Shown here: positions 44,901-62,607 of the stretch, piece after piece | Numbering within the stretch: the first letter of the stretch is position 1 | How the letters are laid out: every line of letters begins with the position of its first letter | Assembly: GCA_946409515.1 (NCBI GenBank) | Contig: CAMJWS010000003.1 | Location: 124,012 to 188,011 of the forward strand | DNA from: an uncultured Caryophanales bacterium | GTDB lineage: Bacteria; Bacillota_I; Bacilli_A; RFN20; CAG-826 | Length of the DNA stretch: 64,000 nucleotides | Direction: 5' to 3' | Notes under the pieces: generated by a model | The model's database searches: none | What the model saw: the letters and a program-made list of their open reading frames with translations, nothing else | Told to the model about the DNA's origin: nothing | Translations under genes and position numbers: made by a program

Positions 44901-45702
44901 CTTGTTGCTTAGTAAGAGTTACTGTGTAATAACCTTGTTCATCCGTGCATTGGAAACTATCACCAGTTTTTATAACAGTGTCGTTTGCTGCAATAAAATT
45001 GGTTTTAATACCCGCTAATGGGTGTGATGTTGATCCATCAGCTTCATACCATTTTGCAATGACACGCAACCTAACGGTATCTGAACTGGCTGTAGAAGAA
45101 GATATTGATGTTTGAATATCGTTACTTCCACTAAAAGTGAAGTCTCCATAACGTTTCTCGGCATCTAATTCTTCGTTTGAATAGGTGTCATACATGTAAG
45201 GATCTTCTGTGTAAGATAGCCAATAGCTTTCACCGTTGGTTGCCCTATAAGCCATAAAGAATTTGGCTCTTGCATCAAATTTAGACAACATTGAGGCACA
45301 GTAGTTTGTTCCGTCTGAGTAAACATAGACTGTTCTAGTGCGTGATCTGCCGTTGGTTGTGTAACCAAATGTAGCATAGAAATCACCACTAGTTGATGGC
45401 GAAGTGATACTGGCATGATAGCCATTGCTTGTACTGGTTGTCACTTGAAGAGCAGAAGACTTATAAAGAAGTCTAAAGTTACTAATAGTTCCTTCGTACT
45501 CCAGATTGGCACTGATGGTGTTTCCTGCGTTCCCGCTTTCGCCATTTAAAGTGAAATAGTTTTGCTCATCGTTAGGAGCGCAACTAATTGATCCGCCTGT
45601 GTCGACAGCAGTTTTCTTAGGTGAACTAGCTATTTTTCCACCCGAATTAAAACCGGCTGCTAAAGCAATCACAAGCGATGCAATAATAACTTTTGAATGC
45701 AT
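41992..45702 (-). CDS. Secreted protein with a zinc-metalloprotease-like and a C11 cysteine-protease domain
   Basis: 1236 aa, exported by an N-terminal signal peptide (MHSKVIIASLVIALAAG). Residues about 380-470 contain SHEYAHYAEE (H397, E398, H401 as an HExxH zinc site) with HEGLATY further on (E443 a likely third ligand). Residues about 580-850 form a clostripain (C11) domain: WTVMLYMYAADL at the start, catalytic H685 in VLYDHGRG and C734 in GYDACLMQ. The C-terminus has two PPC-like beta-sandwiches (WFRFVAPQ occurs twice), separated by a Cys/His-rich segment (HSYTEYG..CACG..CSKCG) that may bind metal. It has no lipobox, sorting motif or C-terminal helix. GAGGAGG precedes the ATG at 45702; an in-frame ATG at 45738 lacks this. 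It probably degrades or processes extracellular proteins. Confidence 0.85.
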   Translation of the reverse strand: MHSKVIIASLVIALAAGFNSGGKIASSPKKTAVDTGGSISCAPNDEQNYFTLNGESGNAGNTISANLEYEGTISNFRLLYKSSALQVTTSTSNGYHASITSPSTSGDFYATFGYTTNGRSRTRTVYVYSDGTNYCASMLSKFDARAKFFMAYRATNGESYWLSYTEDPYMYDTYSNEELDAEKRYGDFTFSGSNDIQTSISSSTASSDTVRLRVIAKWYEADGSTSHPLAGIKTNFIAANDTVIKTGDSFQCTDEQGYYTVTLTKQQASNYMRKDIQVRMSAISAATRVEDSQLRSYAFVRTEKSYTSSTYTQSLSNYAYITYYINVYPSRSDRAAAYEIAEAEIPTYQYINAFTDGVDYVRTRYPSYSTEYRDYPWYQHIIDVQKEDYNNWDLLSHEYAHYAEEMLNIGHYFSFSTRMPHTVHENLINRYGTSDGKALAYHEGLATYIGLASQLYYKQYHSSFTAPDFGNLVYSDTYRGLNVNYGTFAPGKSGNNTIVIEGVESAVTSTMIKLLDSTTRNGDNVALGHQKMWNAILSTGGYSDFDYFLSNVKSQNQSRLADIEYLLCLERNQCQPVTPNSTAEWTVMLYMYAADLPAYDNISEILSVPNQPSNVNIIIETDCRYHDSLPQGNFLYRYHVRNNNLYLDQIIPYTRMCYESTFESFLRWGFNYYPANKTGVVLYDHGRGVNGVCFDDYGLSYEDGLVSSETDMAFRNVLGNNPSTKLEFIGYDACLMQVQDVAEFNSKYFKYQVASEEETSADNGWAYDLWIDNLYRNESTYSIVKEIAYTFAHQPQSYLYAWEQCMSVVNLTVMEGYLEAFNHLSDVMSPVVATNFAAFESIMQSQHHYGYGAQGSNGAPYALVDVVNTLTLLLEDDVFSQFHDEIWAVLNYFPNLDDYGYDQDGYFSNEGSIYDVVQYSIASLGRAGSYSTSHGLSLHYWDDEFDIIYPIEDTHFYSWRDLFMEPEVASIFTWQPAPSHYNPGERRWFRFVAPQAGTYYFESESNLDTFVDLFHTKVSDTTIEGRIDYNDDDGPGNNFRIGIYLNANQKIYLRVRGWSSSSSGNFTVTASYTPAHTHSYTEYGEGDSEGHRVYCACGSYIFEEHSYDSMIPYGHGHNATLVCSKCGHHAEIRAELYEGDQYQSSIDAYDCEWFRFVAPQDGTYRFETTGNYDPCCDVYLGEYPTGNGEYYDDEGTGNNFMFTEYLRAGDIIYLRVRGYDWYHDVSDYTLHVTRVN

Positions 45703-45896
45703 TTTAATACCTCCTCTACATATAAAAGTTAAATGCACATTTTATTCCCACTGCTTAGGAAAGAAGGCATAACAAAAAATAGGCATGCACATCCTTTTCC
45801 GCTATTATGCGCGGATCCCAAACAGTTTTCGTGTTTGGATAATGATTAAGACACAATAAAATTAGTAACTATCGAATTTTTATTTGCCTTTAATCT
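45703..45896 (-). ncRNA. Long structured 5' leader of the dual-protease gene
   Basis: The promoter at 45903-45930 implies about 190 nt of untranslated RNA before the ATG. On the minus strand this holds CCAAACA, 7-nt loop, TGTTTGG (45818-45838), a perfect stem, closely followed by CCGC, 8-nt loop, GCGG (45799-45814), with purine-rich joints between them. It resembles a regulatory RNA, but I could not match it to a known riboswitch class (c-di-GMP types considered). No terminator hairpin is evident inside the leader. Confidence 0.4.
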
Positions 45897-47649: not shown

Positions 47650-49317
47650 ATGGAAGAATTAATATTAAGTATTATTACGTTATTTGTCGGTGCCGCGGTA
47701 TTTATCGTTGGTATGAACATGATGTCCTCTGGTTTAAAGAAATCAACAGGACCAAGTTTAAAGAAGTTATTAAAGAAAATTAGAAACAATAGATTTGCTT
47801 GCTTTGGTATTGGTACCACTGTCACAGCTTTAGTGCAAAGCAGTGCGGCCACAGGTGTCATGGCCATCGGTTTTATTGCCGCTGGTGCGATGACAGTATT
47901 TCAAGGTGTAAACATCATCTTAGGTGCCTATGTTGGCACCACTGTTACTGGTTTAATCGCATCCTTATCATCCATTTCTATTTCTAAGTATTTCGTTATT
48001 CTTGCGGTTATCGGTGTTGTCTTAATGTTCTTTAAAAAAGAACTAGTTAAAAATATCGGTGAAATTTTAGCGGGCTTAGGTATCTTGTTCTTTGGTTTAA
48101 GCACAATGAGTGGCGCTATTATGGGTAACGAAGACTTAGTTAAAGGCATTGAAGACTTCTTTGAAGCCGTTAAGTTCCCACTACTTTTATTATTAATTGG
48201 TGCCTTAGTTACTGCGTTATTGCAATCTAGTTCCGCTTCTATTGGTATCACCGTCGCAATGGTTGGTACTGGTGCCTTACATTTTGAACAAGCTATGTAC
48301 CTTGTTTTAGGTGCTACAATCGGTACCGTCATCACTCTTTTGATTGCTACAATCGGTGGTAACGTTAATGTTAAACGTACTGGCTTAATCGTTTTAATTA
48401 TTCGTGTTTTAGCTGCTTTAGTGGCCTTAGCTGTCTGCTGGCCATTAGCCGCATTCATCACAAATGGTTTCCACGCTGTATTCGGTGATAACAACGCTTT
48501 AGCAATCGCTATATTCCATGTTATTTATAACATCCTCTTTATGCTCGCGGCTTTACCTTTAGTAAAACCATTAGAAAAGTTATCAATTAAATTGATTAAA
48601 GATAGAGAACAAGAAAAGATGAGGGCGTCCCTCAAATACATTGATAACCACTTATTAGATACACCAACTGTCGCTATGATGCAGGTCAAAAGAGAAATCA
48701 TCAACATGATGCATCTTTCTTATGACAACTTAAAACTCGGTTATAAACGTATCCTTACCCAAGATAATTCACAAGACAAAGAACTTATCGAAACTGAAGA
48801 TAAGATTGACTATATCAATAACGCCATCACACAATTCTTAATCAACTTAACACATAATGTTTCATTAAAAGATGAAAAGACACTAGGTAGTTATTTCCAC
48901 GTTGTTAATGATATTGAACGTATTGGTGACCACGCTTATAACTTCTATGAATCATCCTTAAAGATGGTGAGTAATGATTTGAAGTTCTCCGATGTCGCTA
49001 AAAAAGAATTCGACAGCATGTTCGATGTTATTTGTCAGATGTTTGAATTAACATTCGTTATCTTCCACGATAAGAGCAGTGATAGCTTAAAGAAGTTACA
49101 TGATTTAGAAGACCAAACAGATAATTTAAAGAACGCCTTAAGTAGCGCTCACTATGAAAGAATTCAAAAGAAGACATGTAAAGTTGAAAACTCTCCTTTC
49201 TACACCACTTTAGTTAGTGAATTGGAAAGAGTAGCTGACCACTTAGTTAATATTGGTTATTCCATCGTTAACCCAACCGGTGACGATCCCACTGAAAAAT
49301 TAACGGAGCAATTATGA
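47650..49317 (+). CDS. Na+/phosphate cotransporter family protein with PhoU domain
   Basis: Membrane protein of 555 aa. The N-terminal 320 residues contain two inverted Na/Pi-cotransport repeats, each with the QSS signature: LVQSSAATGVM (first) and LLQSSSASIGI (second). The C-terminal 200 residues are cytoplasmic and helical, with a PhoU-like pattern (DIERIGDHAYNFYE and ELERVADHLVNIG, the metal-binding E/D-x-x-x-D motifs). Such NptA-like proteins import phosphate with Na+, here perhaps using the Na+ gradient made by OAD. No ribosome binding site is present; a -10 box lies 9 nt upstream. It leads a three-gene operon with the CPBP protease and Lgt-like genes (overlap of 4 nt). Confidence 0.92.
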   Translation: MEELILSIITLFVGAAVFIVGMNMMSSGLKKSTGPSLKKLLKKIRNNRFACFGIGTTVTALVQSSAATGVMAIGFIAAGAMTVFQGVNIILGAYVGTTVTGLIASLSSISISKYFVILAVIGVVLMFFKKELVKNIGEILAGLGILFFGLSTMSGAIMGNEDLVKGIEDFFEAVKFPLLLLLIGALVTALLQSSSASIGITVAMVGTGALHFEQAMYLVLGATIGTVITLLIATIGGNVNVKRTGLIVLIIRVLAALVALAVCWPLAAFITNGFHAVFGDNNALAIAIFHVIYNILFMLAALPLVKPLEKLSIKLIKDREQEKMRASLKYIDNHLLDTPTVAMMQVKREIINMMHLSYDNLKLGYKRILTQDNSQDKELIETEDKIDYINNAITQFLINLTHNVSLKDEKTLGSYFHVVNDIERIGDHAYNFYESSLKMVSNDLKFSDVAKKEFDSMFDVICQMFELTFVIFHDKSSDSLKKLHDLEDQTDNLKNALSSAHYERIQKKTCKVENSPFYTTLVSELERVADHLVNIGYSIVNPTGDDPTEKLTEQL

Positions 49318-50090
49318 ACAGATACTCCAAATACCTTATAACCTTAGCGTTAGTCGCGCTAGCGGTAACAACTTTTGTGTTGTTTGAAATACAAGGCAAA
49401 GTCCTCACCACTGATCCAATTGTTAACGACATGCTTGGTAGAACTATCTATCAATTATCTATTGGTGCACTTTTCATTTGGCTTATCTATATTATGGGTG
49501 ATAGAGGCTATTTATTCTTAAATAAAACCACTAAAAAGAAATTATTGTGGTGTCTACCTTGCTTGATTACATGTCTAGTTAATTTCCCATGGTTTGGTAT
49601 GTTTTCTGGTGGTGTTTCTATTTCCGCTGCAGTATATATTCCTTTATACGCCGTTTATATCTTTTCCATCGCACTTGTGGAAGAGCTTGTTTTTAGAGGA
49701 GTTTTATTAAATATTGTTTTCCAATATATGAGAAGGTCTAAACTCCCATATGTCTTCTCTGTTCTTATTTCTTCCGCAATATTTGCAGCTTTCCATTTCT
49801 TCAACTTGTTTGATGGTGCCTCTATCAGTTCTGTCTTATTACAAGTTGGATATACTTTCTTAATCGGTTGTATGTTCGCAGTTATTCAAATTAAGATGGG
49901 AAGCGTTTGGTACTGTGTTATATTACATGCCTTATTTGATTTCGGCGGCATGTTCACTCTCTTTGGCTTCGCCTTTGGTGATCCATGGGATGTCATCTTC
50001 TGGATCTTAACAATTGTCTTTGGTCTATTGTGTGCTGGTCACATTATTGTTACCTTAATTAATATGGAGAGAAACAAATATGCTTCCTAA
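49314..50090 (+). CDS. CPBP-family intramembrane metalloprotease
   Basis: Membrane protease of the CAAX/bacteriocin-processing (CPBP, ABI) family, 258 aa, with about seven or eight helices. The catalytic residues stand within membrane segments: E123, E124 and R128 in LVEELVFRGVL, H161 in FAAFHFF, and H205 and D209 in LHALFDF. Family members cut membrane-embedded substrates; one group, the myxosortases, processes C-terminal sorting signals that contain a Cys. The start overlaps the stop of the transporter gene (ATGA), and its end overlaps the Lgt-like gene by 11 nt. Two GH3 proteins with Cys-containing C-terminal anchors are encoded 5-12 kb away. Confidence 0.9.
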   Translation: MNRYSKYLITLALVALAVTTFVLFEIQGKVLTTDPIVNDMLGRTIYQLSIGALFIWLIYIMGDRGYLFLNKTTKKKLLWCLPCLITCLVNFPWFGMFSGGVSISAAVYIPLYAVYIFSIALVEELVFRGVLLNIVFQYMRRSKLPYVFSVLISSAIFAAFHFFNLFDGASISSVLLQVGYTFLIGCMFAVIQIKMGSVWYCVILHALFDFGGMFTLFGFAFGDPWDVIFWILTIVFGLLCAGHIIVTLINMERNKYAS

Positions 50091-50904
50091 TCCACTTTTT
50101 AATATCTTTGGCATTGATATTGATATGTATGCGATTTGCTTTTTAGTGGGCCTAATCGCTTGTTTTGTCTTTACATACATTGCCATGAGAAAAAGTGGTT
50201 ATTCCGCTACCGCAAGAGACACAATCTTAGTGATTGGGTTATTTGCAATCTCACTAGGCTTATTATTTGCTGTTTTAACACAGTCTTTCTATGATTTCAT
50301 CGCTGATCCAAGCGAAGGATTTAAAATCACTGGCAAGATGACATTCTTAGGGGGCTTATTAGGCGGGGTTATTGCCTACTTAGGCATCTATTTCTTATAT
50401 GTCTACGCTATTAATCCAAGATTAAAAGAGACTAACATTTTAAAATCAGATATGAATAAAGGGGTTTGGGAATTATTAAGATTTGCCCCTATCTCCATTA
50501 CACTCGCTCACGCCTTCGGTAGATTAGGCTGCTTCTGTGCTGGCTGTTGTGGCGGTATAGCGACCGATTTATGGTTCGGAGTACAATTCCCTGGGGAACA
50601 CGTTAAACACGTCCCTACGCAGTTATTTGAGGCCATTTTCTTATTTATAATAAGTGCGGCGATGATTGTCTTATACTTTAAATTCAAATTTAAATACAAT
50701 ATGACTGTTTATTTAATCGGATATGGCATCTGGAGATTCTTAATTGAATTTGTTAGAGATGATGATAGAGGACAGTTCATTCCAGGCTTAACTCCTTCCC
50801 AGTTCTGGTCAATCTTAATGGTTATCGGTGGTATTGCTTTCTTCTTCTTATATCGTTGCTTTGATAAAAAGATTCAAGAGAAGAAACAAATAGTTACTGA
50901 ATAA
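50080..50904 (+). CDS. Lgt-like prolipoprotein diacylglyceryl transferase, divergent active site
   Basis: Membrane protein of 274 aa with about seven helices. Family features are HAFGRLGCFCAGCCGG (144-159, with R148 in the place of the essential Arg), YGIWRFLIEFVR (215-226) and DDRGQFIPGLTPSQ. Two usually invariant residues differ: the HGGL motif reads FLGGL (Leu at 90) and the Asn of GRIGN is Cys (C151). Four Cys lie between 151 and 157. Cys-rich Lgt-like paralogues of this kind are known in Bacillota. It may have another acyl-transfer role or another substrate. GGAGAG precedes the ATG. The overlap with the CPBP gene implies joint function. A canonical Lgt presumably exists elsewhere, since true lipoproteins are present. 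Confidence 0.85.
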   Translation: MLPNPLFNIFGIDIDMYAICFLVGLIACFVFTYIAMRKSGYSATARDTILVIGLFAISLGLLFAVLTQSFYDFIADPSEGFKITGKMTFLGGLLGGVIAYLGIYFLYVYAINPRLKETNILKSDMNKGVWELLRFAPISITLAHAFGRLGCFCAGCCGGIATDLWFGVQFPGEHVKHVPTQLFEAIFLFIISAAMIVLYFKFKFKYNMTVYLIGYGIWRFLIEFVRDDDRGQFIPGLTPSQFWSILMVIGGIAFFFLYRCFDKKIQEKKQIVTE

Positions 50905-50920
50905 ATAAAAACGCAAAATA

Positions 50921-50952
50921 AAAATGGACCTCAAGTGAGATCCATTTTTTGT
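50921..50952. terminator. Bidirectional terminator between the Lgt-like and GH3 genes
   Basis: AAAAATGGA, CTCA/TGAG, TCCATTTTT form a long stem with a single internal mismatch and A/T-runs on both sides. Confidence 0.85.
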
Positions 50953-50961
50953 TTGATTGTT

Positions 50962-53937
50962 TTATTCTGCGGCAGCCGCTTCAACTTTTTCTTTCTTGCG
51001 TAAAGCAGTGAAGATTGCGAAGAAGCCCCAGACCGCAACAGCACCAGCAATGCCCCATGTACCAGCGGTGAGAGCAACTCTCCAAACAGCTGGCTTGTAG
51101 CCGAGAATCTTAACGCCCATAGCGCAAGAATTGACGATGGCGTATAAGTTACCATGTGCTGAACGTCTTAATAATTCGACATCTTTTGGATTGCTTGGTG
51201 AAACTTGTTTAGCCTTTTCACCCTTCTTAAGCATGATGTCTTTAGTAGAGCAGAGGTTTAAGTCACCACCAGCGTAGAGCATTTGCTTACTATCCATATA
51301 AGTGTCTGTATGGTAGTCACAGATAACGGAACCTTTGAAGCCCCATTCATTTCTAAGAATGGTTGTGCATAAGCGGTAAGAACCACCAGCCCATTCAGAA
51401 CCGATACGGTTGAAGGATGTCATTAAGCCGTGTGTTTCGCCTTCTTTGACCGCTCTTTCGAAAGGTCTGAAGTAAAGTTCACGCATCGCTTGTTCATCAC
51501 ACCAAGTAGCAACACCTTTATCGGATCTATGTGTTTCTTGGTCGTTTAAGGCGAAGTGCTTAACGTTAGCGTAAACACCTTTTTCTTGAACACTCTTAAT
51601 GAGGTTTGCAGCGAACATACCAGATAAGTATGGATCTTCTGAATAGTATTCAGTGTTACGGCCAGAGAATGGAGAACGATGTAAGTTGACGCCTGGAGCA
51701 TACCAACCTGGGTATGGGAGGCCATCACCACGTTCATTACCACATAAGCATTCGTCACCGATTGCTTCGCCTTGCTTTTTCGCTAATTCAACATTGTATG
51801 TTTGTGCTAATAAGCATTCTGATTGATAGTAAGCTGTACCATAAACTTCTGGTTCACCTAATTTAGTGATGTTACTTAAGAAGCAGACAAGACCAGTAGG
51901 ACCATCAGAAGAAATTGTTCTTGGGATACCTAGACGTTGAATATCGAGTGTGGAATAGCAACCTTCATTGAATAAGCCAAGCATTTCATCAAATGTCATT
52001 TGATCAAGGAATTTATTCCAGTTAGCATCATCATAGTTAACACCGATGAGTTCTGTGAATTCAACCGAGACAGGAGCGTTTGTTTTTGGCATCTTCTCAT
52101 AAACTTCATCATTTGTGGTTTCATATGATTTGAACTTGTCATAGTAGGAAGGATCAAATGTACGTTCCGCAAGAGTAATGACTTGTGGGAATGTACCTGC
52201 GAAATCACGACGTGATAAGCTTTGAGCAGGATTCATGTGTTCTGTAACTTCAGGGAATAAAGGTTTAACTTCATAACCTGTCACTGGATCCTTTTCATAT
52301 CTTTCGTTATTAGCTAACTCTTTAGTGAAGGTATCAAAATCAGTGTGAGAATCTGTACCAGCATGGAACACATAATCACCTTTTTCTAATTCCCAACCTT
52401 TGAAGTTATTGTTGTTTTTATCACGGCTATCAAAGCTTGCAAAATCATATGGATCAACAGTGATTCTCACTGTTTCTTCTTCGTTTGGCGCTAAAAGTTT
52501 TGTTTTGGCAAAGCCAACTAAGACTTTATGAGCTTTTTCGATACCATGGTTAACAGCATCATATGGCGCAGAGACATATAATTGAACGACGTCTTTACCA
52601 GCAATTGAGCCAGTATTTTTAACTTTAATATCGACGTCGAATGTTTTGCCTTTTTCTAATTTAGCGGCTTCTAAAGCGGTCTTATCAACGAGTTCTTCGC
52701 TGAAGGTTGTATAGCTTAAGCCATAACCGAATGGATAGACAACATTAGCGTTGTACCATTCTTCGCCATTCGCATCATCATGAGCGCGTGTTTCGTAATA
52801 ACGATAACCAAAGAAAATATTTTCTTCGTATTCGATTAAATAGTATTGAGTACCATTTTTGTCTAGATCTGTTTTACTAGCGTCACGATAGTTAGCGCCG
52901 TTGCTTTCGAAGTTGTCACCAAAGTTTTGCCATGTTGGGTCTTGACTATAGTTTGTATAGTACAAGTCGATGGTATGACCTGATGGGTTAACAGCACCAG
53001 TAAGGATGTTACCTAAGGACATAATGCCATAACCACCAACACTACCGATATTAATGACAGCGTCAATGTTCTTGCCGAAATCGTTATAATCTGTTGGATT
53101 TGTTCTTTCGTATAAGAAACCGAGGTCGATATTGTTAGAACCGTTTAATAAGATAACGATGTGTTCGAACTTACCAGAAGCAGCGATGTTTCTTAATAAG
53201 TCTCTTTCATTGTTATCTAATTCGAGGTAGTGACGATTTTCATCATCAGTGGCCTTACGTGGTAAGTCCCAGTTTTCACCGGCAATACGTGAGAAGACAA
53301 CTAATGCGGCATCACCGTATTCATCATAAGAATTCTTAATATCATCAGTATAACTGGAGTATGGTGTTTCACCTGTCGCTAATGGACCAACGCCACCATT
53401 ATCCATTGGAGGGTTGGAATCACGGCCTCTACCAGAAGCACTGCTTTCATAGAATTCTTTTAATTTTGGGTTATAAGAGAAACCAGCAGCGGTTAAAGAT
53501 TCATAAATGGTCTTTCTTTCCGCATCAACAGGAGCGGCGGAACCTGAACCACCAGTAACAATACCGACAGTTTCTTTATCGCCGTTAGGTAATGTACGTG
53601 TATAGTTTGTGGAGTTTTTACCGAAAACAGATACTTTAGCTCCTCTTGCGAGAGGAAGAGCATTGTTGTCGTTTTTAAGTAAAACCATACCTTCGTTACA
53701 AATTTCTTGTGTAACGGCATTACCATTTGCGTATGTTTGTTCTTTTGTTTTGTAATCTGGATCTGTTTTATCTCTTGGAGCAGTGATGGCTTTTTTACCA
53801 CCTAAAACTCTATCAATTAAAGATCCATATTGACCAACCGCAACTGCATTGGCAGCAATTAAGACACCTGTAAGAACAAGCGCTGACGCAGCCCATACAA
53901 TAACGCGTGGTTTTAATAATTTTTTAATAACACCCAT
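50962..53937 (-). CDS. Membrane-anchored GH3 beta-glycosidase with permuted domains and helices at both ends
   Basis: 991 aa. A basic start and a helix (VIVWAASALVLTGVLIAANA) form a signal-anchor. The alpha/beta sandwich comes next (EGMVLLKNDNNALPL; NPSGHTIDLYY), then the Fn3-like domain (FGYGLSYTTF), then the catalytic barrel (NLHRSPFSGRNTEYYSEDP, KHFALNDQE, ICDYHTD with expected nucleophile D874). A second helix (about 951-977) and a basic tail RKKEKVE end the chain. It has no Cys before the last helix, unlike the two GH3 proteins further right. It follows the CBM-like lipoprotein gene after 12 nt, so the two are co-transcribed and may act on the same substrate. Confidence 0.9.
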   Translation of the reverse strand: MGVIKKLLKPRVIVWAASALVLTGVLIAANAVAVGQYGSLIDRVLGGKKAITAPRDKTDPDYKTKEQTYANGNAVTQEICNEGMVLLKNDNNALPLARGAKVSVFGKNSTNYTRTLPNGDKETVGIVTGGSGSAAPVDAERKTIYESLTAAGFSYNPKLKEFYESSASGRGRDSNPPMDNGGVGPLATGETPYSSYTDDIKNSYDEYGDAALVVFSRIAGENWDLPRKATDDENRHYLELDNNERDLLRNIAASGKFEHIVILLNGSNNIDLGFLYERTNPTDYNDFGKNIDAVINIGSVGGYGIMSLGNILTGAVNPSGHTIDLYYTNYSQDPTWQNFGDNFESNGANYRDASKTDLDKNGTQYYLIEYEENIFFGYRYYETRAHDDANGEEWYNANVVYPFGYGLSYTTFSEELVDKTALEAAKLEKGKTFDVDIKVKNTGSIAGKDVVQLYVSAPYDAVNHGIEKAHKVLVGFAKTKLLAPNEEETVRITVDPYDFASFDSRDKNNNNFKGWELEKGDYVFHAGTDSHTDFDTFTKELANNERYEKDPVTGYEVKPLFPEVTEHMNPAQSLSRRDFAGTFPQVITLAERTFDPSYYDKFKSYETTNDEVYEKMPKTNAPVSVEFTELIGVNYDDANWNKFLDQMTFDEMLGLFNEGCYSTLDIQRLGIPRTISSDGPTGLVCFLSNITKLGEPEVYGTAYYQSECLLAQTYNVELAKKQGEAIGDECLCGNERGDGLPYPGWYAPGVNLHRSPFSGRNTEYYSEDPYLSGMFAANLIKSVQEKGVYANVKHFALNDQETHRSDKGVATWCDEQAMRELYFRPFERAVKEGETHGLMTSFNRIGSEWAGGSYRLCTTILRNEWGFKGSVICDYHTDTYMDSKQMLYAGGDLNLCSTKDIMLKKGEKAKQVSPSNPKDVELLRRSAHGNLYAIVNSCAMGVKILGYKPAVWRVALTAGTWGIAGAVAVWGFFAIFTALRKKEKVEAAAAE

Positions 53938-53949
53938 ATTAGTTCACCA

Positions 53950-55017
53950 TTAGTCGAGTTCTAAGTTTGTGACATCTTCATCTGGCCATGTTAATTCACT
54001 AGAAGTAACTAATCTAATAGCATCAACTGTTGGAGCAGTAGCACCAGCGGAAGAATAGATGGTGATGTTATTGTCAACTTTCATTTGAATAACATTTTCA
54101 CCTTCTTTTAAATTTACTGTTGCACTGACCATGTAGTCAGAGAATGGTAAGAAAGCACCGTCAGTAGATGGAGCATTGCGGATGGTAATTGTACCATATT
54201 CAACTCTGTCATCATTGACTTTAATTGTGAACATTTCATCAGTAAATGAATATTGTCTGCCTTTACCGTGATCTTCGTCTTTTCTACCATATTCAGCACC
54301 AAAACGAGCGAATAATGTAACGTTGGTGTCAGCAGCACTAGCATTTAATTTCCATGTTAATGTATTACCTTGGACATAGAGGAAGTGGACGAATGCGCCT
54401 GGGAGATATTCATCGCCATCAGCATTTAATGTGCCAACTTTATGAGAAGCACTTAATTCATAATCCCAGTCACGGCCGATTAAGCCTTTACCTCTATTAC
54501 CGCCTGAGTATGTAGCGCCCCACATACCTGTGCCATCTTCACCCATAATATCTGGGCAGTATTCAGCTTCAAATGTTTGAAGTGCTTTATTAGCATCAAT
54601 GAAGCATGGGACAAGAGTCATATCACCCATGACAGCATTTAACATTTTTCTGTTGAAGTTCCAGATTCTACCACCATCAGCGGCGTTCATCCAACCATAG
54701 AATTTCTTACCTGCTGGAGCAGTTGGATCTTCTGGCTTTGTTAATTTGCCTTTGTATTGAACGTTTTGTGTTGTATTTGTGCCATTTCCTTGATAGTCAA
54801 ATGTCACAGTGTAGCTTGGCCAATCAGCACCTGGTTCTTCATCAAATGGATTGCCTTCTTCAAATGGTTCTTCAGGGATTGAGTCTGGAGCTAAAGAGGA
54901 AGAAGCACGGCTAGAACGTGAACTTGAGCTCTTTGGGTTGTTACTACCACAGGCGACGAGTGATAATGAAGCAACCATCATTCCGAAGAAAAACATTTTT
55001 CTTTTTAAATTTTTCAT
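53950..55017 (-). CDS. Lipoprotein with InlB-like repeat and CBM6/35-like domain
   Basis: 355 aa. The signal peptide ends in the lipobox LVAC (C23). A Ser/Arg-rich and then Pro/Glu/Asp-rich linker (about 25-65) leads to an InlB-type beta-grasp repeat (YTVTFDYQGNGTN..GKKFYGW, about 68-110). The C-terminal part (about 145-350) resembles CBM6/35-type carbohydrate-binding modules: it begins FEAEYCPDIMG, has YSGGNRGKGLIGRD, and ends GENVIQMKVDN..APTVDAIRL. It should bind polysaccharide at the cell surface. The gene is 12 nt upstream of the GH3 gene at 50962. The promoter is at 55146-55173. The binding call is by pattern only. Confidence 0.75.
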   Translation of the reverse strand: MKNLKRKMFFFGMMVASLSLVACGSNNPKSSSSRSSRASSSLAPDSIPEEPFEEGNPFDEEPGADWPSYTVTFDYQGNGTNTTQNVQYKGKLTKPEDPTAPAGKKFYGWMNAADGGRIWNFNRKMLNAVMGDMTLVPCFIDANKALQTFEAEYCPDIMGEDGTGMWGATYSGGNRGKGLIGRDWDYELSASHKVGTLNADGDEYLPGAFVHFLYVQGNTLTWKLNASAADTNVTLFARFGAEYGRKDEDHGKGRQYSFTDEMFTIKVNDDRVEYGTITIRNAPSTDGAFLPFSDYMVSATVNLKEGENVIQMKVDNNITIYSSAGATAPTVDAIRLVTSSELTWPDEDVTNLELD

Positions 55018-55094
55018 AATAATTCGTTATTCAGTTAACCCTAGGATTTACTACCGAATAACATTCTCCTTTCTAGGGGTATATAATCAAGCGC

Positions 55095-55121
55095 CATCTT
55101 AATACGATACGATTTAAGATG
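55095..55121 (-). promoter_or_regulatory. Leader stem-loop of the CBM lipoprotein operon
   Basis: CATCTTAA, 11-nt loop, TTAAGATG: a perfect 8-bp stem within the untranslated leader. Confidence 0.45.
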
Positions 55122-55145
55122 ATGCTTTATTAACAATTTTCAGTA

Positions 55146-55173
55146 TTTATAGCATACCACTATGTGCATGCAA
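55146..55173 (-). promoter_or_regulatory. Promoter of the CBM lipoprotein-GH3 operon with TGCATGCA palindrome
   Basis: Minus strand TTGCAT (-35), 16-nt spacer, TATAAA (-10). TGCATGCA (55165-55172) covers the -35, and ATATGCAT occurs twice just upstream, suggesting a regulator site. Confidence 0.5.
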
Positions 55174-55192
55174 TGTGTATATGCATTTATAT

Positions 55193-55240
55193 GCATGAAA
55201 CTGCTAGGACCACGCAGGCCCTAGCAGTCATGCTTTTTTT
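55193..55240 (+). terminator. Strong stem-loop after the GH3 gene at 55261
   Basis: GCATGA/TCATGC and CTGCTAGG/CCTAGCAG stack into a long stem. The T-run (seven T) follows on the plus strand although the gene ending here is on the minus strand, so it may work as a transcript barrier or 3' stabiliser. Confidence 0.55.
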
Positions 55241-55260
55241 ATTTAGAAATTATTCTAGAA

Positions 55261-58200
55261 CTATGCTCTTCTTTTTTTGCGTAAGGAGACAAGCAATAAG
55301 CCTGCACCGGCAAGAGCAACTAATCCGATGATCGCACCGCAAGCAGCGACATCACCGAAGCAGCCATTAGAGAAGGTTTGTTCGTTACCTGTTGTGGCTC
55401 TAACGGTTAACTTATAAGCTCCACAAACGCCTTCAGCATTTTCACCGATGAATTCTAAGTGATAAATGCCTTCTAATTGGAATTTACCAGAGAGGATACC
55501 GTTTTCGAACTTAACGCCTTTTGGTAATTGAACACGGTTGTTGAGTCTAATTGTATCAGCACCTTCAATCGTAATTTCGATTGGTTCGAATTCTGTACGT
55601 GCTTCGATTTCTTGATACTTAATATTTTCTTCGGCAACGCCAATATAGTAACCGGCTTTCTTTGTTAAGACACCGTTACAATTGACGGACATGTATAAGT
55701 GTTCTTTAACACGTTCTCTGACGGCATTCCACCATGTGTAAGAAACGAATTCTGTTTCTGTACCATCAGCGGCTTTATATTTGGATGTTGGAGCACCCTT
55801 ACCATCAAAGGCATCTGGATCCCATGTACATTCTGTGTAACCTTTGAAACCACCAGAGTCTAATTGACAGTTACAACCAGCAACAGCACGGTTATCGACT
55901 GTTTCATAGCATCTGAAGTTAACGGAAGCGTTACCACTGTGGGTCATATCGGATAAGACTGAACCCTTGAAGCCCCATTCACCACGGAGAACTTCTGTTA
56001 ATAATGGGTAAGAAGCAGCGGTTTCCATTAAACCTACACGGTTATAGGAACCCATAACACCGATTGATTTACCTTCTTCGAAGACCATTTGGAAGGACTT
56101 GAGGTAAATTTCACGTAAAGCTTGTTCGTTGAGGAAGGAGATACCGGATTCACGGTTCTTTTCTTGATCGTTAACAGCAAAGTGTTTGAAGTAAGCGTAG
56201 ACGCCTCTATCAGCAGCAGCACCAACAACGTTAGCAGCGATTCTACCCATTAAGAATGGATCGGCTGAATAGTATTCGAAGTTTCTACCACCGAATGGAG
56301 AACGGTGTGTGTTGACCGCTGGGCCCCACCAACCGGATTCACCATTAAGGTTAGATTCCATACCAACGCATTCACCTTGTTTGTGAGCGAGTTCTGGATT
56401 GAATGTCGCGGCAATGATTGGGGAAGAAACCCACATGATACCACTAGCACTCTTTAATTTTTGTGGACCATCACCTTCAGTGAAGCCAGGTTTACCAATA
56501 TTACTTTGGCTGACACTGCTCATTCTGTTTTCTTCAACGTATTTGAGCATTTCGGCATATGTGAATTCGTTAATGAAAGCTGTCCAAGCTTGTTCACCAG
56601 TCATACCTGGGAATTTTTCTTGTGCTTCTGGGTCTGTGATTTTACCAGTTAATGGAACATTCTTCATGTCGATTAATTGGATACGATCAGCTTGAGCTTT
56701 TGCTTCAGCAGCTTGTTCCCAGCCACCTTTAATAGCGTCTTGTTCTGTTCTAGCAGCTTCCTTAGGAATGATGTCATAGTTGTGAGCAACATCGACCTCA
56801 CCTAATTGGAATTCATGAGTTAAGAATTCTTCGAATTTGCTACCTTCTTTAACTGTTCTATCTTCGATAGTTGGGTGTGTTGGGAAAGTACCGACGAAGT
56901 CTGCACGACTCATTTGTGTGAATTCGATATCGTTTTCACCTGGCATTGAGCTGTACCAGCCTCTATTTGTGAAGCGGTTCTTAACTTCGTTATTGGAGAA
57001 ACGGTCTTTCTTATATTTGATGTTCTTAGAAACATTGAAATCAAATGATTCATATGCTTCGTGGGCGTTTTTACCTAATAAGACGGAATAAGCGCCTTTT
57101 TCTAATTCATAGCCAGAGAATTTGTTCTTGTTAGCATCAGAGTAGTCGTAGTTAGCGACATCTTGGAGATAGAAGGATAAGCTAATTTCTTGACTTTCAC
57201 CTGGTTTTAATAATTTTGTCTTATCGAAAGCACATAAGACGTGGTCAGCTTTTTCAATGCCACCTTTCTTATATGGAGCTTTCCAATATAATTGAACGGC
57301 ATCCTTACCAGCGACATTACCAGTATTTGTAACTTTAACTGTGAAGGAGATGACTTCGTTCTTTTCGTTTACTTTGCCTTCTCTTTTGATATTGGCTTTA
57401 ACGATTTCTTGGTTAAAAGTTGTATAGCTTAAGCCAAAACCGAATGGGTAAACAACACCTTCTTCGCCGTTATACCATGCGTCAGCTTGTTCTTTGTTTT
57501 CTAAAGCCATATCAGCATAGCGTGTTTCATAATAACGATAGTCAAGATAGATACCTTCTTCGTATGAAACGTAAGCGGATGGTTTAACACCATTGATACC
57601 ACCGGCGACGACTTGAGCTTCTTGACCACCACGAGCACTGTCCCATCTTGGTGAACCGTGGTCTTTGTAGCTCTTATCTGTACCAAAGGACATCATTGGA
57701 GCGCCATCAGCGGCGAACATTGTGTCTTGTGGAGCATAATATTGCTTACCATTGGATAATGTGACTAAGTTTGTTTGAGCATTATCGGAGAAGTTTTGGA
57801 ATGTTGGATCCTTTGTGAAGTCACGTGCCCATGTGTCAACTGTACGACCTGATGGGTTAACTTCACCTTTAAGGATACGACCAATAGCACCAGCACCGAC
57901 GTCACCAACGTTACCGACCCATAAGATAGCGGCAACTTTTGGATCATTCATTAAATCATCACATTCGAAGATGTTGGAAGAGTTAATGACAATGATAATG
58001 TTGTCTGTGTGGTTCTTTAATTCGTTTAATAAAGCTTCTTCGTTTTCGGATAATTGAAGAGCGTGTCTGTCAGAAATCTTTTCTGAACTAGAGTTTGTTG
58101 CTTTGCTATCGTGAGCGTTACATGTTTTAACGTCACAACCTTCACTACCTTCACGAGTAAGAACTTGAACGGCAGCATCTTTGTATTCATCTAAGCTAGC

Positions 58201-58734
58201 CATTAAGTTAGCATTGCCTGTAACGGATGAGATTGGTGTTTCACCAATAACAACTTGGGAGTTACCTTTCCAACCATCGTTACCATTAGCACGGCCACTG
58301 CCTGAACTTGTGCCCTTATAGAATGTAAGAGCAGTTGGGTTAACATCGAAACCAGCATTTTTCAATGATTGTTCGAAGTCGATGGCATCGCCAGATCTTG
58401 TTGGGGTAGCTTCACCAGAACCGCCACCACCACGGGCGATGTCTTTGCTGCCATTATTTGTTTGGTACTTGACGGAGTTCTTGCCAACGAGGGAAACCTT
58501 TTCGTTTCCAGCCATTGGTAAGAAAGCTTGTCCACTTTCATTCTTTCTATTTTTAAGAAGAACGAAACCTTCATCTGCCATTTGGGCATTCACTTTATAT
58601 CCGAATTCAAGGTATTTGCTGCTATCTGTGATTTCGCCGATCCATTCAGCATCAACAGCACCAGCACCTTTGTTCAAACATACAGGTAAAGCCATAGCGG
58701 CAAGAAAAATTGGAATTAATACTTTTTTCTTCAT
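55261..58734 (-). CDS. Surface GH3 beta-glycosidase, permuted domains, GCFG C-terminal anchor (copy 1)
   Basis: 1157 aa. A cleavable-type signal peptide (MKKKVLIPIFLAAMALPVCL) is followed by the alpha/beta sandwich (EGFVLLKNRKNESG; NPSGRTVDTWARD), Fn3-like domain (FGFGLSYTTF), TIM barrel (NTHRSPFGGRNFEYYSADP; KHFAVNDQEKNRESG; LSDMTHSG with expected nucleophile D929), and an Ig-like domain (about 1030-1110). The C-terminal tail reads SNGCFGD, then a helix, then RKKRRA. It equals the product of 59011-62484 in length and shares long identical segments, so the two are tandem duplicates. AAAGGAAAAAC lies before the ATG. The tail resembles tripartite C-terminal sorting signals. It probably cuts beta-linked oligosaccharides on the cell surface. 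Confidence 0.92.
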   Translation of the reverse strand: MKKKVLIPIFLAAMALPVCLNKGAGAVDAEWIGEITDSSKYLEFGYKVNAQMADEGFVLLKNRKNESGQAFLPMAGNEKVSLVGKNSVKYQTNNGSKDIARGGGGSGEATPTRSGDAIDFEQSLKNAGFDVNPTALTFYKGTSSGSGRANGNDGWKGNSQVVIGETPISSVTGNANLMASLDEYKDAAVQVLTREGSEGCDVKTCNAHDSKATNSSSEKISDRHALQLSENEEALLNELKNHTDNIIIVINSSNIFECDDLMNDPKVAAILWVGNVGDVGAGAIGRILKGEVNPSGRTVDTWARDFTKDPTFQNFSDNAQTNLVTLSNGKQYYAPQDTMFAADGAPMMSFGTDKSYKDHGSPRWDSARGGQEAQVVAGGINGVKPSAYVSYEEGIYLDYRYYETRYADMALENKEQADAWYNGEEGVVYPFGFGLSYTTFNQEIVKANIKREGKVNEKNEVISFTVKVTNTGNVAGKDAVQLYWKAPYKKGGIEKADHVLCAFDKTKLLKPGESQEISLSFYLQDVANYDYSDANKNKFSGYELEKGAYSVLLGKNAHEAYESFDFNVSKNIKYKKDRFSNNEVKNRFTNRGWYSSMPGENDIEFTQMSRADFVGTFPTHPTIEDRTVKEGSKFEEFLTHEFQLGEVDVAHNYDIIPKEAARTEQDAIKGGWEQAAEAKAQADRIQLIDMKNVPLTGKITDPEAQEKFPGMTGEQAWTAFINEFTYAEMLKYVEENRMSSVSQSNIGKPGFTEGDGPQKLKSASGIMWVSSPIIAATFNPELAHKQGECVGMESNLNGESGWWGPAVNTHRSPFGGRNFEYYSADPFLMGRIAANVVGAAADRGVYAYFKHFAVNDQEKNRESGISFLNEQALREIYLKSFQMVFEEGKSIGVMGSYNRVGLMETAASYPLLTEVLRGEWGFKGSVLSDMTHSGNASVNFRCYETVDNRAVAGCNCQLDSGGFKGYTECTWDPDAFDGKGAPTSKYKAADGTETEFVSYTWWNAVRERVKEHLYMSVNCNGVLTKKAGYYIGVAEENIKYQEIEARTEFEPIEITIEGADTIRLNNRVQLPKGVKFENGILSGKFQLEGIYHLEFIGENAEGVCGAYKLTVRATTGNEQTFSNGCFGDVAACGAIIGLVALAGAGLLLVSLRKKRRA
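57782..57831. repeat. 50-nt identical segment shared with 61514-61563
   Basis: Identical over 50 nt to 61514-61563 within the two GH3 genes. It encodes the DTWARDFTKDPTFQNFSDN region. Confidence 0.85.
58102..58157. repeat. 56-nt identical segment shared with 61834-61889
   Basis: Identical over 56 nt to 61834-61889. It encodes the EGSEGCDVKTCNAHDSK region, including two Cys. Confidence 0.85.
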
Positions 58735-58965
58735 ATGTTTTTCCTTTCAAAGTAAATTTGCATTATTAATTTTGCCTCAGTACGAGTGCAAAACCGGATT
58801 TTTTAAATCATTATCTTTTAGAATCCATAATGCATTAGCATATTCAATATAAATTGAAGGGTTCATTTATAATATGACAATTCTTATATACGGGCAGGAC
58901 TATCATTAGATTAAGTATTTTTTCAAACAGTGATTTTATTTAGATTTTATCAATATTTTTTACAC

Positions 58966-58991
58966 AAAAAAGACCCTCACTCTGAGGGTCT
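58966..58991 (-). terminator. Terminator of the GH3 gene at 59011
   Basis: AGACCCTCA and TGAGGGTCT form a 9-bp stem with a 3-nt loop, followed by T-runs on the minus strand. Confidence 0.9.
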
Positions 58992-59010
58992 TAATTGTTT
59001 TATTTAACAA

Positions 59011-62000
59011 TTAGGCTTCTGCTCTTCTTTTCTTACTTACTAAGAGGAAGGCAAAGCCAGCGATTGCTAAAAATGTAACGCCCGCCATTGTGGCCTCTAA
59101 TGAACCGAAACAACCGCCTTTGCTTGGATTGTTGTTCTTGAGTTCTGGAGCAAAGATTTCAAAGCTTGAACCTAATGTTTGTTCACTTTGATCTTCGAAT
59201 GTAACTTTCGCTAAAACGTGAACGAAGACGTTACATGGAGAAGCGAGTTTACCAGAGATGGCGTTGCCATCAAAGGATAAGCCTTTTGGTAATGGAGTAA
59301 ATGGATCAATTTCTAATCTGACAGAAGAAATCTTCTTACCGCCGATTTCTTGACCAGCTTGTAAAGCTTCTGGAGTTTCAACGTTGATGTTAAATTCAAC
59401 ACCACTATTAACTTCGAATCTTGCTAATGTTAAGCCGTTGAATGTTAAGCCAGCTTCTTTGATCAATGTCTTAGACATAACACCACAGTTAGCGCATGTC
59501 CACATTGTTTCTTTGACGTTTTGTCTTAACATATACCACCATGTATAGGATTCAACAATATTACCATCTTTATCATTGAATACTGGAGCGCCTTTACCAT
59601 CAAAGGCATCTGGATCCCATGTACATTCGATTTGTTGTCTAAAACCATCACTATCTAATTGTTGGTTACAGCCAGCTAAGATACGGTCATTGATGTTTTC
59701 GTAGCAGTGATTGTTAACACTAGAATTACCACTATGTGTCATATCGGAAATGATGTGACCTTTGAAGCCCCATTCATCACGTAAGACTTCTGTTAATAAT
59801 GGATAAGAAGCAGCAGTTTCCATTAAACCTAAACGGTTATAGGAAGACATGATGGCCATGGATTTACCTTCTTGAACAACCATTTGGAATGGTTTGAGGT
59901 AAATTTCACGTAAGGCTTGTTCTGTTAAGAAGGCAGAAACACCTTCACGGTTCTTTTCTTGATCGTTAACAGCAAAGTGCTTGAAGTAGCAATATAAACC
60001 TTTATCAGTAGCACCCGCGACAACTCTACCAGCGATTCTACCCATTAAGAATGGATCAGCTGAATAGTATTCGAAGTTTCTGCCACCAAATGGTGAGCGG
60101 TGTAAGTTGACAGCTGGACCAGCCCAACCATATGTACCAGAAATATGAGCTTCGATACCAACCATTTCACCTTGTCGTTGCGCTAAGCGGACATTGTATG
60201 TCGCTGCCACGATTGGTGCGCCAGCCCACCAAACATATCTGAATTGTGAAGGACCGTCACTGTCGCCAGTGCCTGGTTTATTCATTCTGCTAATGGCTGG
60301 GTTATGGTTACTGCCACCATAAGAGAAGCTAATCAATTCAGCGTATGTCATTTGATTCATAGCTTCTTCCCAAAGTGGATCGTCCATATCAAGGCCGACT
60401 AAATCTTTGAATTGAATACTTTCCTCCGCGGATAAAGTACTTTCAGGTTGTGTCCAGCCTAAAGCTTCGATATCTGCTTTAGTCTTTAAAGCTTCAACAG
60501 GAATGTAAAGACCTTTATTTTCATTTTCTAAGTCTTCCATTATGAATTCATGAGTTAAGTACTCTTCATAACGGCTACCTTCTTTGACCATTCTGTCTTC
60601 ATAGGTTGGGTGATGTGGAGTATTACTCATATCACTACGTGAATATTGTTCGAAATCAAAGTCTTTTTCACCTGGTAAACAGCTATAGAAGCCTCTATCA
60701 GTGAATCTGTTTTTAACTTCGTGACCTGTGTAACGGTCTTTCTTGTATTTGATATTGCTGGAAACTTTAAAATCGAAAGAATCGATTTCTTCGTGTGCAC
60801 TCTTATTTAGGGAGATAGAATATGTGCCCTTTTCGAGTTCGTAACCTCTGAACTTATTATTGTTAGCATCAGAAAAGTCGTAGTTAGCGAAATCTTGTGA
60901 ATCAATATAAAGTTTGAGTGTTTGTTCTTCACCTGGTTTTAATAATTCTGTCTTATCGAAAGCACATAAGACATTGTTGGCTTTTTCAATACCACCCTTC
61001 TTATATGGAGCTTTCCAATATAATTGGACGACATCTTTACCAGCGACATTACCAGTATTTGTAACTTTGACTGTCACTTCAATTTTGACGTTGCCGTTTT
61101 TAATGACTTTATCTTTGAGGTTAGAGCCTACAATTTCTTGTTTGAATGAAGTATAGCTTAAGCCATAGCCGAATGGATAGATAACACCTTCTTCGCCGTT
61201 ATACCATGCATCCGCTTGGTCTTTATTTTCTTTAGCCATATCAGCATATCTTGTTTCGTAATAACGATAGTCAACATAGATACCTTCTTCATACGCTAAA
61301 TAGGAGGCAGGTTTAACACCATTTAAGCCACCTTGAACGACTTTGAATTCTTCACCACCACGAGCGGTATCCCATCTTGGTGCACTATGTTCTTTATAGT
61401 TCTTATCTGTACCATAGCTGAGCATTGGGAAACCATCTGCGGTCAATAATGTATCTTGTGGAGCGTAGTATGTTTTACCAGTTGTCGCGGATGTCACTTC
61501 GTTTGTTTGTGAGTTATCGGAGAAGTTTTGGAATGTTGGATCCTTTGTGAAGTCACGTGCCCAAGTATCAACTGTGTGACCGGATGGGTTCACTGCACCA
61601 GTTAAGATTCTACCGACGGAAGAAGCACCAACAGCGCCTGGGTTGCCAATCCAAAGGATAGCTTTGACTTTGTCATCGTTTTCAAACTTATCGCATTGGA
61701 AAACGTTACCAGAGTTGATAATGATAATGACATTATCAGTGTGTTTTTTAATTTCTTCGAATAAGGCTTCTTCGTTTTCAGATAATTGAAGAGCGTGTCT
61801 ATCACTAACCTTTTCCGCACTGGAATTGGTCTTTTTGCTATCGTGAGCGTTACATGTTTTAACGTCACAACCTTCACTACCTTCACGAGAAATGACTTGG
61901 ATAGCGGCATCTTTATATTCATCTAAGGTCGCTAATAATTCAGCGGTATAAGATGAAATTGGAGATTCACCAATAGTAACTTCGGAGTTACCTTTCCAAC

Positions 62001-62484
62001 CATCGTTACCATTTGTTCTACCAGAACCAGATTTTGAGTTGTAGTTGTAAGTCAAACCACCATAGCCGCCTTTCCCCCAGCTACCATATAGTTTTTGAAT
62101 TTCTGTATTTACTTGGAAGCCGACTTCTTCTAAAGCGCCCTTAACGTTATTAGAAGAGTCGCCGAATAATTGCCAGTCTTCTTCACCATTGACGTTACCA
62201 GAACCGGAACCGCCACCACCTCTAACGAGGTTACCCGAACTCTTACCAACTAAAGAGATCTTTTTGCCTTCAGCGGACATTGGTAAGAAATTGTCTTTGT
62301 TCTTGAGAAGGACGAAACCTTCATCACAGATTTCCATGTTTAGTTTTGAGCCAGCTTTTGTATAATCACTTTGGTTTGCATAGTCACCAATAAATTCAGC
62401 GGAGACACCGCTATGTTGGTTAGACAAGCATAGAGGAAGCGCCATACCCAAAACAATGACAGGGAATAAAAGTTGTTTCTTCAT
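59011..62484 (-). CDS. Surface GH3 beta-glycosidase, permuted domains, GCFG C-terminal anchor (copy 2)
   Basis: 1157 aa from the ATG at 62484, which has AAAGGAAAAAG upstream; an in-frame ATG at 62535 would put 17 residues before the signal peptide. Order: signal peptide (MKKQLLFPVIVLGMALPLCL), alpha/beta sandwich (EGFVLLKNKDNFLP; NPSGHTVDTWARD), Fn3-like domain (FGYGLSYTSF), TIM barrel (NLHRSPFGGRNFEYYSADP; KHFAVNDQEKNREG; ISDMTHSG with expected nucleophile D914), an Ig-like domain, then GGCFGS, a helix and KKRRAEA. A glycine/Tyr/Ser-rich insertion (GSWGKGGYGGLTYNYNSKSG) near residue 135 is absent from copy 1. Like copy 1 it appears monocistronic, with its own terminator. Confidence 0.92.
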   Translation of the reverse strand: MKKQLLFPVIVLGMALPLCLSNQHSGVSAEFIGDYANQSDYTKAGSKLNMEICDEGFVLLKNKDNFLPMSAEGKKISLVGKSSGNLVRGGGGSGSGNVNGEEDWQLFGDSSNNVKGALEEVGFQVNTEIQKLYGSWGKGGYGGLTYNYNSKSGSGRTNGNDGWKGNSEVTIGESPISSYTAELLATLDEYKDAAIQVISREGSEGCDVKTCNAHDSKKTNSSAEKVSDRHALQLSENEEALFEEIKKHTDNVIIIINSGNVFQCDKFENDDKVKAILWIGNPGAVGASSVGRILTGAVNPSGHTVDTWARDFTKDPTFQNFSDNSQTNEVTSATTGKTYYAPQDTLLTADGFPMLSYGTDKNYKEHSAPRWDTARGGEEFKVVQGGLNGVKPASYLAYEEGIYVDYRYYETRYADMAKENKDQADAWYNGEEGVIYPFGYGLSYTSFKQEIVGSNLKDKVIKNGNVKIEVTVKVTNTGNVAGKDVVQLYWKAPYKKGGIEKANNVLCAFDKTELLKPGEEQTLKLYIDSQDFANYDFSDANNNKFRGYELEKGTYSISLNKSAHEEIDSFDFKVSSNIKYKKDRYTGHEVKNRFTDRGFYSCLPGEKDFDFEQYSRSDMSNTPHHPTYEDRMVKEGSRYEEYLTHEFIMEDLENENKGLYIPVEALKTKADIEALGWTQPESTLSAEESIQFKDLVGLDMDDPLWEEAMNQMTYAELISFSYGGSNHNPAISRMNKPGTGDSDGPSQFRYVWWAGAPIVAATYNVRLAQRQGEMVGIEAHISGTYGWAGPAVNLHRSPFGGRNFEYYSADPFLMGRIAGRVVAGATDKGLYCYFKHFAVNDQEKNREGVSAFLTEQALREIYLKPFQMVVQEGKSMAIMSSYNRLGLMETAASYPLLTEVLRDEWGFKGHIISDMTHSGNSSVNNHCYENINDRILAGCNQQLDSDGFRQQIECTWDPDAFDGKGAPVFNDKDGNIVESYTWWYMLRQNVKETMWTCANCGVMSKTLIKEAGLTFNGLTLARFEVNSGVEFNINVETPEALQAGQEIGGKKISSVRLEIDPFTPLPKGLSFDGNAISGKLASPCNVFVHVLAKVTFEDQSEQTLGSSFEIFAPELKNNNPSKGGCFGSLEATMAGVTFLAIAGFAFLLVSKKRRAEA
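61514..61563. repeat. 50-nt identical segment shared with 57782-57831
   Basis: Second copy of the 50-nt segment, in the same orientation and at the matching place in the tandem GH3 gene. Confidence 0.85.
61834..61889. repeat. 56-nt identical segment shared with 58102-58157
   Basis: Second copy of the 56-nt segment, at the matching place in the tandem GH3 gene. Confidence 0.85.
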
Positions 62485-62607
62485 ACTTTTTCCTTTCAAA
62501 TTATGAATATTATGTTTGTTTCTATAGGAATACAAACGACTACTCTAATATTATGCCGCGTTTTGTAAACGTTAGTAAGCAAAATAGAGATAATAATTGC
62601 AGAATAT

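Follow-up and report, generated by a model that had tools for sequence, protein, structure and literature searches.

Which proteins are served by a CPBP-type intramembrane protease and a paralogue of the diacylglyceryl transferase Lgt whose genes overlap, in the neighborhood of two GH3 glycosidases ending in a Cys-containing tail? The question is raised by a 64,000-nucleotide stretch of contig CAMJWS010000003.1 from an uncultured Caryophanales bacterium (G000:C3:124012-188011, hereafter the window), whose own genome, G000, was read as 16 contigs with a total of 1.32 Mb. Tail, CPBP gene and Lgt-like gene occur together and the two genes lie side by side across the order, and the tailed proteins are exported. 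We propose, with a probability of roughly two in three, that the locus encodes a dedicated C-terminal lipoprotein pathway, in which the Lgt-like enzyme would lipidate the Cys of the tail and the CPBP enzyme would then cut off the helix that follows it. The argument turns on four features of the window:

49314-50090, plus strand: CPBP (Rce1-like) glutamic intramembrane protease of 258 residues (PF02517, 1.6e-17), the proposed tail-cutting enzyme

50080-50904, plus strand: Lgt-like (GCC-type) diacylglyceryl transferase paralogue of 274 residues (PF01790, 4.3e-32), the proposed enzyme acting on the tail Cys

55261-58734, minus strand: GH3 glycosidase with the tail GCFGD-helix-RKKRRA at about 55264-55380 (from sequence and Pfam)

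59011-62535, minus strand: GH3 glycosidase with the tail GCFGS-helix-KKRRAEA at about 59014-59133 (from sequence and Pfam); the probable start codon is the ATG at 62484

A preliminary description of this DNA had reported an 11-nt overlap between the CPBP and Lgt-like reading frames and two GH3 proteins ending in SNGCFGD or KGGCFGS, one helix and RKKRRA or KKRRAEA respectively, and both observations were borne out. The genome-wide search for such tails that it had proposed returned five proteins with GCxG[S/D/A]-helix-basic ends in the own genome, and a Sec-like N-terminus was recognized by eye on all five. Besides the two GH3 enzymes, the carriers are an S8 subtilase with a PA domain (1376 residues), an endonuclease I with a Big_3 domain (604 residues) and a 282-residue protein without a Pfam match. 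They share the tripartite build of MYXO-CTERM-like proteins, in which an exported protein ends in a Cys motif, one helix and a basic C-terminus. Among 31 tails the G-C-x-G motif was invariant, in a set that was picked with a Cys filter, whereas the subtilase set described below was picked without one. When the tails were compared with the known Cys-type CTERM models of NCBIfam, only Synergist_CTERM matched, with one tail and at E 0.57. The generic LPXTG_anchor model matched at 7.6e-4 or weaker, which reflects the helix and the basic end, as the tails contain no LPxTG. The DNA pattern GGNTGYTTYGGN, tried as a first tail query, proved too short for use, and L275, a match from the search of the class, was discarded as a false positive with an LPETG tail.

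The preliminary description had staked its proposal on the pair and the tail occurring together in related genomes, and in a sample of 147 genomes of the order they do. The Lgt-like gene, scored at 128 bits or more (next matches at 71 bits or less), was found in 32 of the 147 genomes. The CPBP subfamily was found in 31, of which 30 scored at least 176 bits and one, G146, carried the gene in two overlapping pieces; the next-best matches, with 136 bits in G129 and 112 bits in G123, belong to genomes that have neither the tail nor the Lgt-like gene. The tail was detected at E<1e-4 in 31 genomes. With a profile built partly from these genomes' own tails, 30 genomes had both tail and Lgt-like gene, one had only the tail, two had the Lgt-like gene without a profile-detected tail and 114 had neither (Fisher p 9e-28), and the corresponding counts for tail and CPBP were 30, 1, 1 and 115 (p 6e-29). 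A profile made solely from tails of the own genome matched 29 genomes at E<1e-3, and 28 of them were Lgt-like positive. Within the eight genera of mixed status 3 of 62 genomes were discordant, giving an exact genus-stratified p of 5e-10. As for the two genomes scored as having only the Lgt-like gene, inspection of G111, the assembly of locus L155, revealed GCSGN and GCAST tails near the pair, whereas G010 lacks the CPBP gene as well and has an Lgt that falls among the stand-alone GCC-type Lgts.

The split CPBP gene of G146 lies on the minus strand at about 769-1514 of locus L099, in two overlapping frames separated by one frameshift, and may represent an assembly error, a pseudogene or frameshifting. 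The same genome has the most tails of any, with 14 profile matches.

The CPBP gene directly neighbors the Lgt-like gene in 27 of 30 loci. Counted from the coordinates, these comprise 11 loci in the order CPBP-Lgt, 13 in the order Lgt-CPBP, 2 divergent pairs and 1 convergent pair. Among the non-adjacent cases, G070 has the two genes on the same contig at a distance of 2 kb, and G039 has them on separate contigs. Six further loci showed an adjacent pair in five cases. The conservation of adjacency through the loss of gene order is a strong sign that the CPBP and Lgt-like proteins have a joint function. The nearest tail gene lies 4-10 kb from the pair in six genomes, and elsewhere far away or on another contig; this proximity is suggestive only, as no test of it was made, and it was not used as evidence.

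The subtilase provided a natural experiment. With the own protein as query, 96 genomes of the family were searched for homologues, and the subtilase ended in GCxG, helix and basic residues in all 16 Lgt-like-positive genomes and in none of the ten Lgt-like-negative ones. Eight of these ten negatives (G123, G484, G104, G076, G110, G113, G031 and G085) retain a helix and basic residues without GCxG, and the subtilases of G058 and G066 have no helix. Nine genomes were new with respect to the order sample. Eight of them are tailed, six of these being Lgt-like positive (G455, G456, G464, G467, G472 and G481), and the untailed one, G484, is without the Lgt-like gene. G467 is a weaker case, since the Lgt found there belongs to a more distant GCC type and has no CPBP gene beside it.

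Both enzymes of the pair were then examined individually. The CPBP protein matched PF02517 with 64.0 bits, above the gathering score of 22.4, and its motifs EExxFR (EExxxR), FxxxH and HxxxD/N are conserved, E123, E124, R128, F157, H161 and H205 being invariant in 25 relatives and position 209 being N or D, with N in at least 90% of them. The protease motifs are thus competent for catalysis. The AlphaFold2 model had a predicted local distance difference test score (pLDDT) of 90.7 and resembled MmRce1 (4cad) with Z 11.6 over 198 residues and SpdC (6u0o) with Z 13.2 over 212 residues, the next row giving only Z 7.1 over 62. A search of the CPBP profile against the PDB sequences returned no match. 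The protein scored below the cut-offs of the NCBIfam myxosortase models, the best match being MrtJ with 30.2 bits against a cut-off of 75, followed by Mrt_core (26.5 against 100) and MrtC (18 against 195).

The Lgt-like protein matched PF01790 with 111.8 bits (gathering score 24.9), and its structure model (pLDDT 88.3) aligned with E. coli Lgt (5azb) with Z 19.8 over 236 residues. Its R148, Y215, R219, E223 and R226 are invariant in 27 relatives and correspond in the alignment to R143, Y235, R239, E243 and R246 of the E. coli enzyme, which line the donor site and do not tolerate mutation (PMC4728403). The Lgt fold and both catalytic arginines are therefore present. The preliminary description had pointed to a GRLGCFCAGCC segment and to Leu90 and Cys151 in place of two usually invariant residues. 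All three are indeed there, Leu90 and Cys151 aligning with E. coli His103 and Asn146, and they turned out not to be peculiar to this gene: relatives have Y, F, I or L at the H103 site and an invariant Cys151, the signature residues N146 and E151 are both Cys, and the NFINGE signature as a whole is replaced by CFxxGCC with three invariant Cys. The protein stayed under the cut-offs of the NCBIfam lgt equivalog models (76.1 against 118.9 bits for TIGR00544; 108.9 against 334 for PRK00052.3-4). Its chemistry needs another arrangement, as H103 is absent from the subfamily, and we would expect diacylglyceryl transfer with the acceptor arranged differently.

The possibility that the cell has no Lgt besides the Lgt-like enzyme was also considered and was rejected. 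A PF01790 search of the own genome found one other Lgt at C4:5506-6309, and 30 of the 32 positive genomes have at least two PF01790 matches, the Lgt-like gene thus being an extra copy in these; G039 and G056 show one. As the own genome also has an LspA-like open reading frame, its N-terminal lipoprotein pathway looks complete without the pair. No second gene closely similar to the CPBP or the Lgt-like protein was found in the own genome by phmmer, and a search by pattern only, not by profile, detected neither an LPxTG tail nor a sortase-like motif. The canonical Lgt (G000:C4:5212-6783) has 523 residues, of which about 180 form a long, hydrophobic extension at the N-terminus; the Lgts of the family mostly occupy open frames of 440-740 residues, against 280-350 elsewhere in the order.

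How the parts might work together can be outlined as follows. Sec would export the enzymes by means of a cleavable N-terminal signal, and the C-terminal tail, consisting of GCxG[S/D/N], about 20 hydrophobic residues and lysines or arginines left inside, would stop them in the membrane. With KKRR inside, the tail Cys would be placed on the outer side of the membrane, the side on which Lgt has its active site. There the Lgt-like paralogue would move diacylglycerol from phosphatidylglycerol onto the Cys thiol, and the CPBP enzyme would then cut C-terminal to this lipidated residue, much as Rce1 cuts prenylated substrates, the helix and basic end being discarded. The product would be a glycosidase, subtilase or nuclease anchored by a C-terminal lipid. 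Lipidation, cleavage, their order and the kind of lipid are what we infer here.

Beyond the order, the GCC-type Lgt is common across Bacillota and extends to Elusimicrobia, Kiritimatiellae and Nitrospiraceae. The GCC signature was accordingly rejected as diagnostic of the tail system, since Lachnospiraceae, Clostridium, Elusimicrobia, Kiritimatiellae and Nitrospiraceae have this type with no CPBP gene detected in the fetched locus. The tail profile mostly gave no match in 15 other families of the class. Pairs from outside the order (L162, L164, L165, L167, L172 and L173) all belong to tailed genomes, the tails of two of these six being weak by profile or recognized by inspection only; L136, L153, L155, L159 and L160 are genomes of the order sample and were not recounted. 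In Clostridia with a lone GCC-type Lgt, the specific CPBP gene may be located elsewhere: of the genomes with close relatives of the window Lgt, G158, G160 and G161 have this gene (124-160 bits) and tail matches at 3e-6, 2e-9 and 0.05, and G159 and G175 have neither CPBP nor tail. As the GCC-type Lgt is widespread and often stands alone without tails, CPBP is the more specific marker of the tail. Apart from the few exceptions named in this text, tailed genomes always have an Lgt of the right type; the converse statement, that an Lgt-like gene means a tail enzyme, is not valid in general, given that other lineages have GCC-type Lgts with neither a CPBP partner nor tails.

In a Nitrospiraceae genome (UBA6905) a GCC-type Lgt (L197:9522-10750) lies immediately downstream of an LspA-like gene, an indication that this form of Lgt can be the housekeeping enzyme. 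Near GCC-type Lgts of Izemoplasmatales and a relative, proteins of about 835 residues (L168:2483-4981 and L178:2421-4943) end in the variant tail TGC[G/A]A[K/Q]NAS-helix-RK[K/E]W[L/F], perhaps another Cys-type C-terminal signal; G176, the genome of L168, has the specific CPBP gene elsewhere.

In the Lgt tree the window genus grouped with the close Clostridia relatives named above with support 100/99, and in the CPBP tree it did so with 91/88, separated by a deep branch from the main Bacilli group. Both trees thus indicate that the window genus has a Clostridia-type pair, most of the order having another type. The paired Lgts were rejected as a single clade: on the Lgt tree the pair label requires 8 changes, which means that the linkage was gained or lost several times.

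Several points weigh against the proposed pathway. Tails without a detectable Lgt-like gene occur in G071 (75% complete) and, among the new subtilase genomes, in G474 (95% complete) and G457 (83% complete). GCC-type Lgts often lack both CPBP and tail and may be another housekeeping form of Lgt. The changes H103A/N/Q/R/Y in E. coli Lgt fail to complement (PMC4728403), so this residue is irreplaceable there, yet the Lgt-like subfamily has Y, F, I or L in its place. Lipidation and cleavage are themselves inferred steps. Finally, MrtX of Myxococcus xanthus cut its tail in E. coli, where only the canonical Lgt was available, and a special Lgt may therefore be unneeded (PMC11980579).

This last result, obtained without a dedicated transferase, also speaks for the view that the CPBP enzyme alone trims or releases the tail, the Lgt-like protein being linked to it otherwise, for instance through N-terminal lipoproteins, and the Cys receiving its lipid from the canonical Lgt or none at all. 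The stricter tracking of the tail by CPBP than by the GCC-type Lgt outside the order fits this explanation, as does the wide spread of tail-less GCC-type Lgts. Within the order, however, the Lgt-like gene is tied to the tail as tightly as CPBP and is found beside it in four arrangements, and the N-terminal pathway does not need the Lgt-like protein, since nearly all genomes have another Lgt and the own genome an LspA-like gene. We therefore regard this explanation as unlikely.

It is decidedly improbable that the pair forms an accessory N-terminal lipoprotein pathway, either as an alternative to Lgt/LspA or with the CPBP protein as an LnsB-like acyl transferase, the tails being merely correlated with lifestyle. 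The known substrates of Lgt are N-terminal, and a CAAX/CPBP-type protein takes part in the N-acylation system LnsAB of S. aureus (PMC7387801). Lifestyle would not, however, make orthologues swap a Cys tail for a plain helix with the presence of the Lgt-like gene, and the concordance holds between species within one genus. Slightly less credible again is a reverse order, in which CPBP cuts before the Lgt-like enzyme acts on the Cys thus exposed at the C-terminus, or a joint transpeptidase action of the two enzymes by which the protein is transferred to a lipid. All genomic evidence is compatible with such schemes and sortases offer a precedent for a single step, whereas characterized Rce1 enzymes cut after prior lipidation (PMC11980579) and a Cys already cut would lose the helix that keeps it at the membrane. 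Chance or shared ancestry, under which the tail would be an ordinary single-helix anchor and the clade would have inherited the pair as well, draws on the commonness of C-terminal helices with basic ends and the non-independence of genus members, and can practically be dismissed in view of the genus-stratified test, the survival of adjacency through rearrangement and the plain, Cys-less helices of Lgt-like-negative relatives.

Two further genes of the window adjoin the pair:

47650-49317, plus strand: membrane-protein gene upstream of CPBP, Na/Pi-cotransporter-like (by eye, from sequence only)

50962-53937, minus strand: third GH3 protein, with a C-terminal helix and basic end and without the GCxG motif (from sequence)

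The membrane-protein gene overlaps the start of CPBP by 4 nt and is therefore probably co-transcribed with it; it is outside the conserved CPBP/Lgt-like pair. The third GH3 protein is an internal contrast and not a substrate. In all three GH3 proteins (50962-53937, 55261-58734 and 59011-62535) the Pfam domains occur in the order C-terminal domain, Fn3-like domain and N-terminal domain, a permuted GH3 arrangement. An exported protein of 1248 residues with a clostripain (C11) domain, encoded at 41992-45738, has no GCxG tail.

The proposed C-terminal lipoprotein pathway resembles several known systems. MrtX is a CPBP enzyme that cuts the Cys-containing C-terminal MYXO-CTERM tail; lipidation before cutting is the model proposed for it, and its cognate acyl-transferase is yet to be identified, Lgt being named as the leading candidate (PMC11980579). 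A CPBP-family intramembrane protease, a tail made of Cys motif, one helix and basic end, and exported surface proteins are common to both systems. In contrast to MrtX, the window CPBP is far under the NCBIfam myxosortase cut-offs, the organisms are uncultured Bacillota (Bacilli and Clostridia), not Myxococcota, which have an outer membrane and a type II secretion system, and a dedicated Lgt paralogue adjoins the protease. The tail families JDVT-CTERM/MrtJ, Synerg-CTERM/MrtS and CGP-CTERM/MrtA, reportedly described in the work of Haft, likewise pair a CPBP enzyme with a Cys-containing C-terminal signal; the window CPBP, however, is below all their equivalog cut-offs and none of their models identifies the tails. 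We know of no Lgt partner in these systems. With Lgt itself (5azb) the Lgt-like protein shares the fold, PF01790 and the residues matching R143, Y235, R239, E243 and R246, and it differs in the replacement of H103 and of NFINGE, in being a second copy and in its tie to a C-terminal instead of an N-terminal Cys signal. In the eukaryotic and archaeal CaaX systems, too, a Cys in the C-terminal region is lipidated, there by a prenyl transferase, before a CPBP enzyme, Rce1, cuts after it; here the reaction would take place at the outer face of the membrane, with a helix in place of aaX and presumably diacylglyceryl in place of prenyl. No paper on the CPBP/Lgt pair or the GCxG tail was found in the open-access literature, subscription work such as the 2024 myxosortase prediction being outside the search.

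These Bacillota probably possess a complete C-terminal lipoprotein pathway, a mirror image of Lgt/LspA, whose Lgt paralogue would be a transferase of the kind postulated by the myxosortase model. The two-gene cassette makes the transferase question of MrtX testable in a laboratory host that expresses both genes and one tail. Should the proposal hold, C-terminal anchoring of bacterial lipoproteins exists and current lipoprotein predictors miss such proteins, and a defined anchoring route would be gained for a set of surface enzymes, namely glycosidases, proteases and nucleases, from uncultured gut bacteria.

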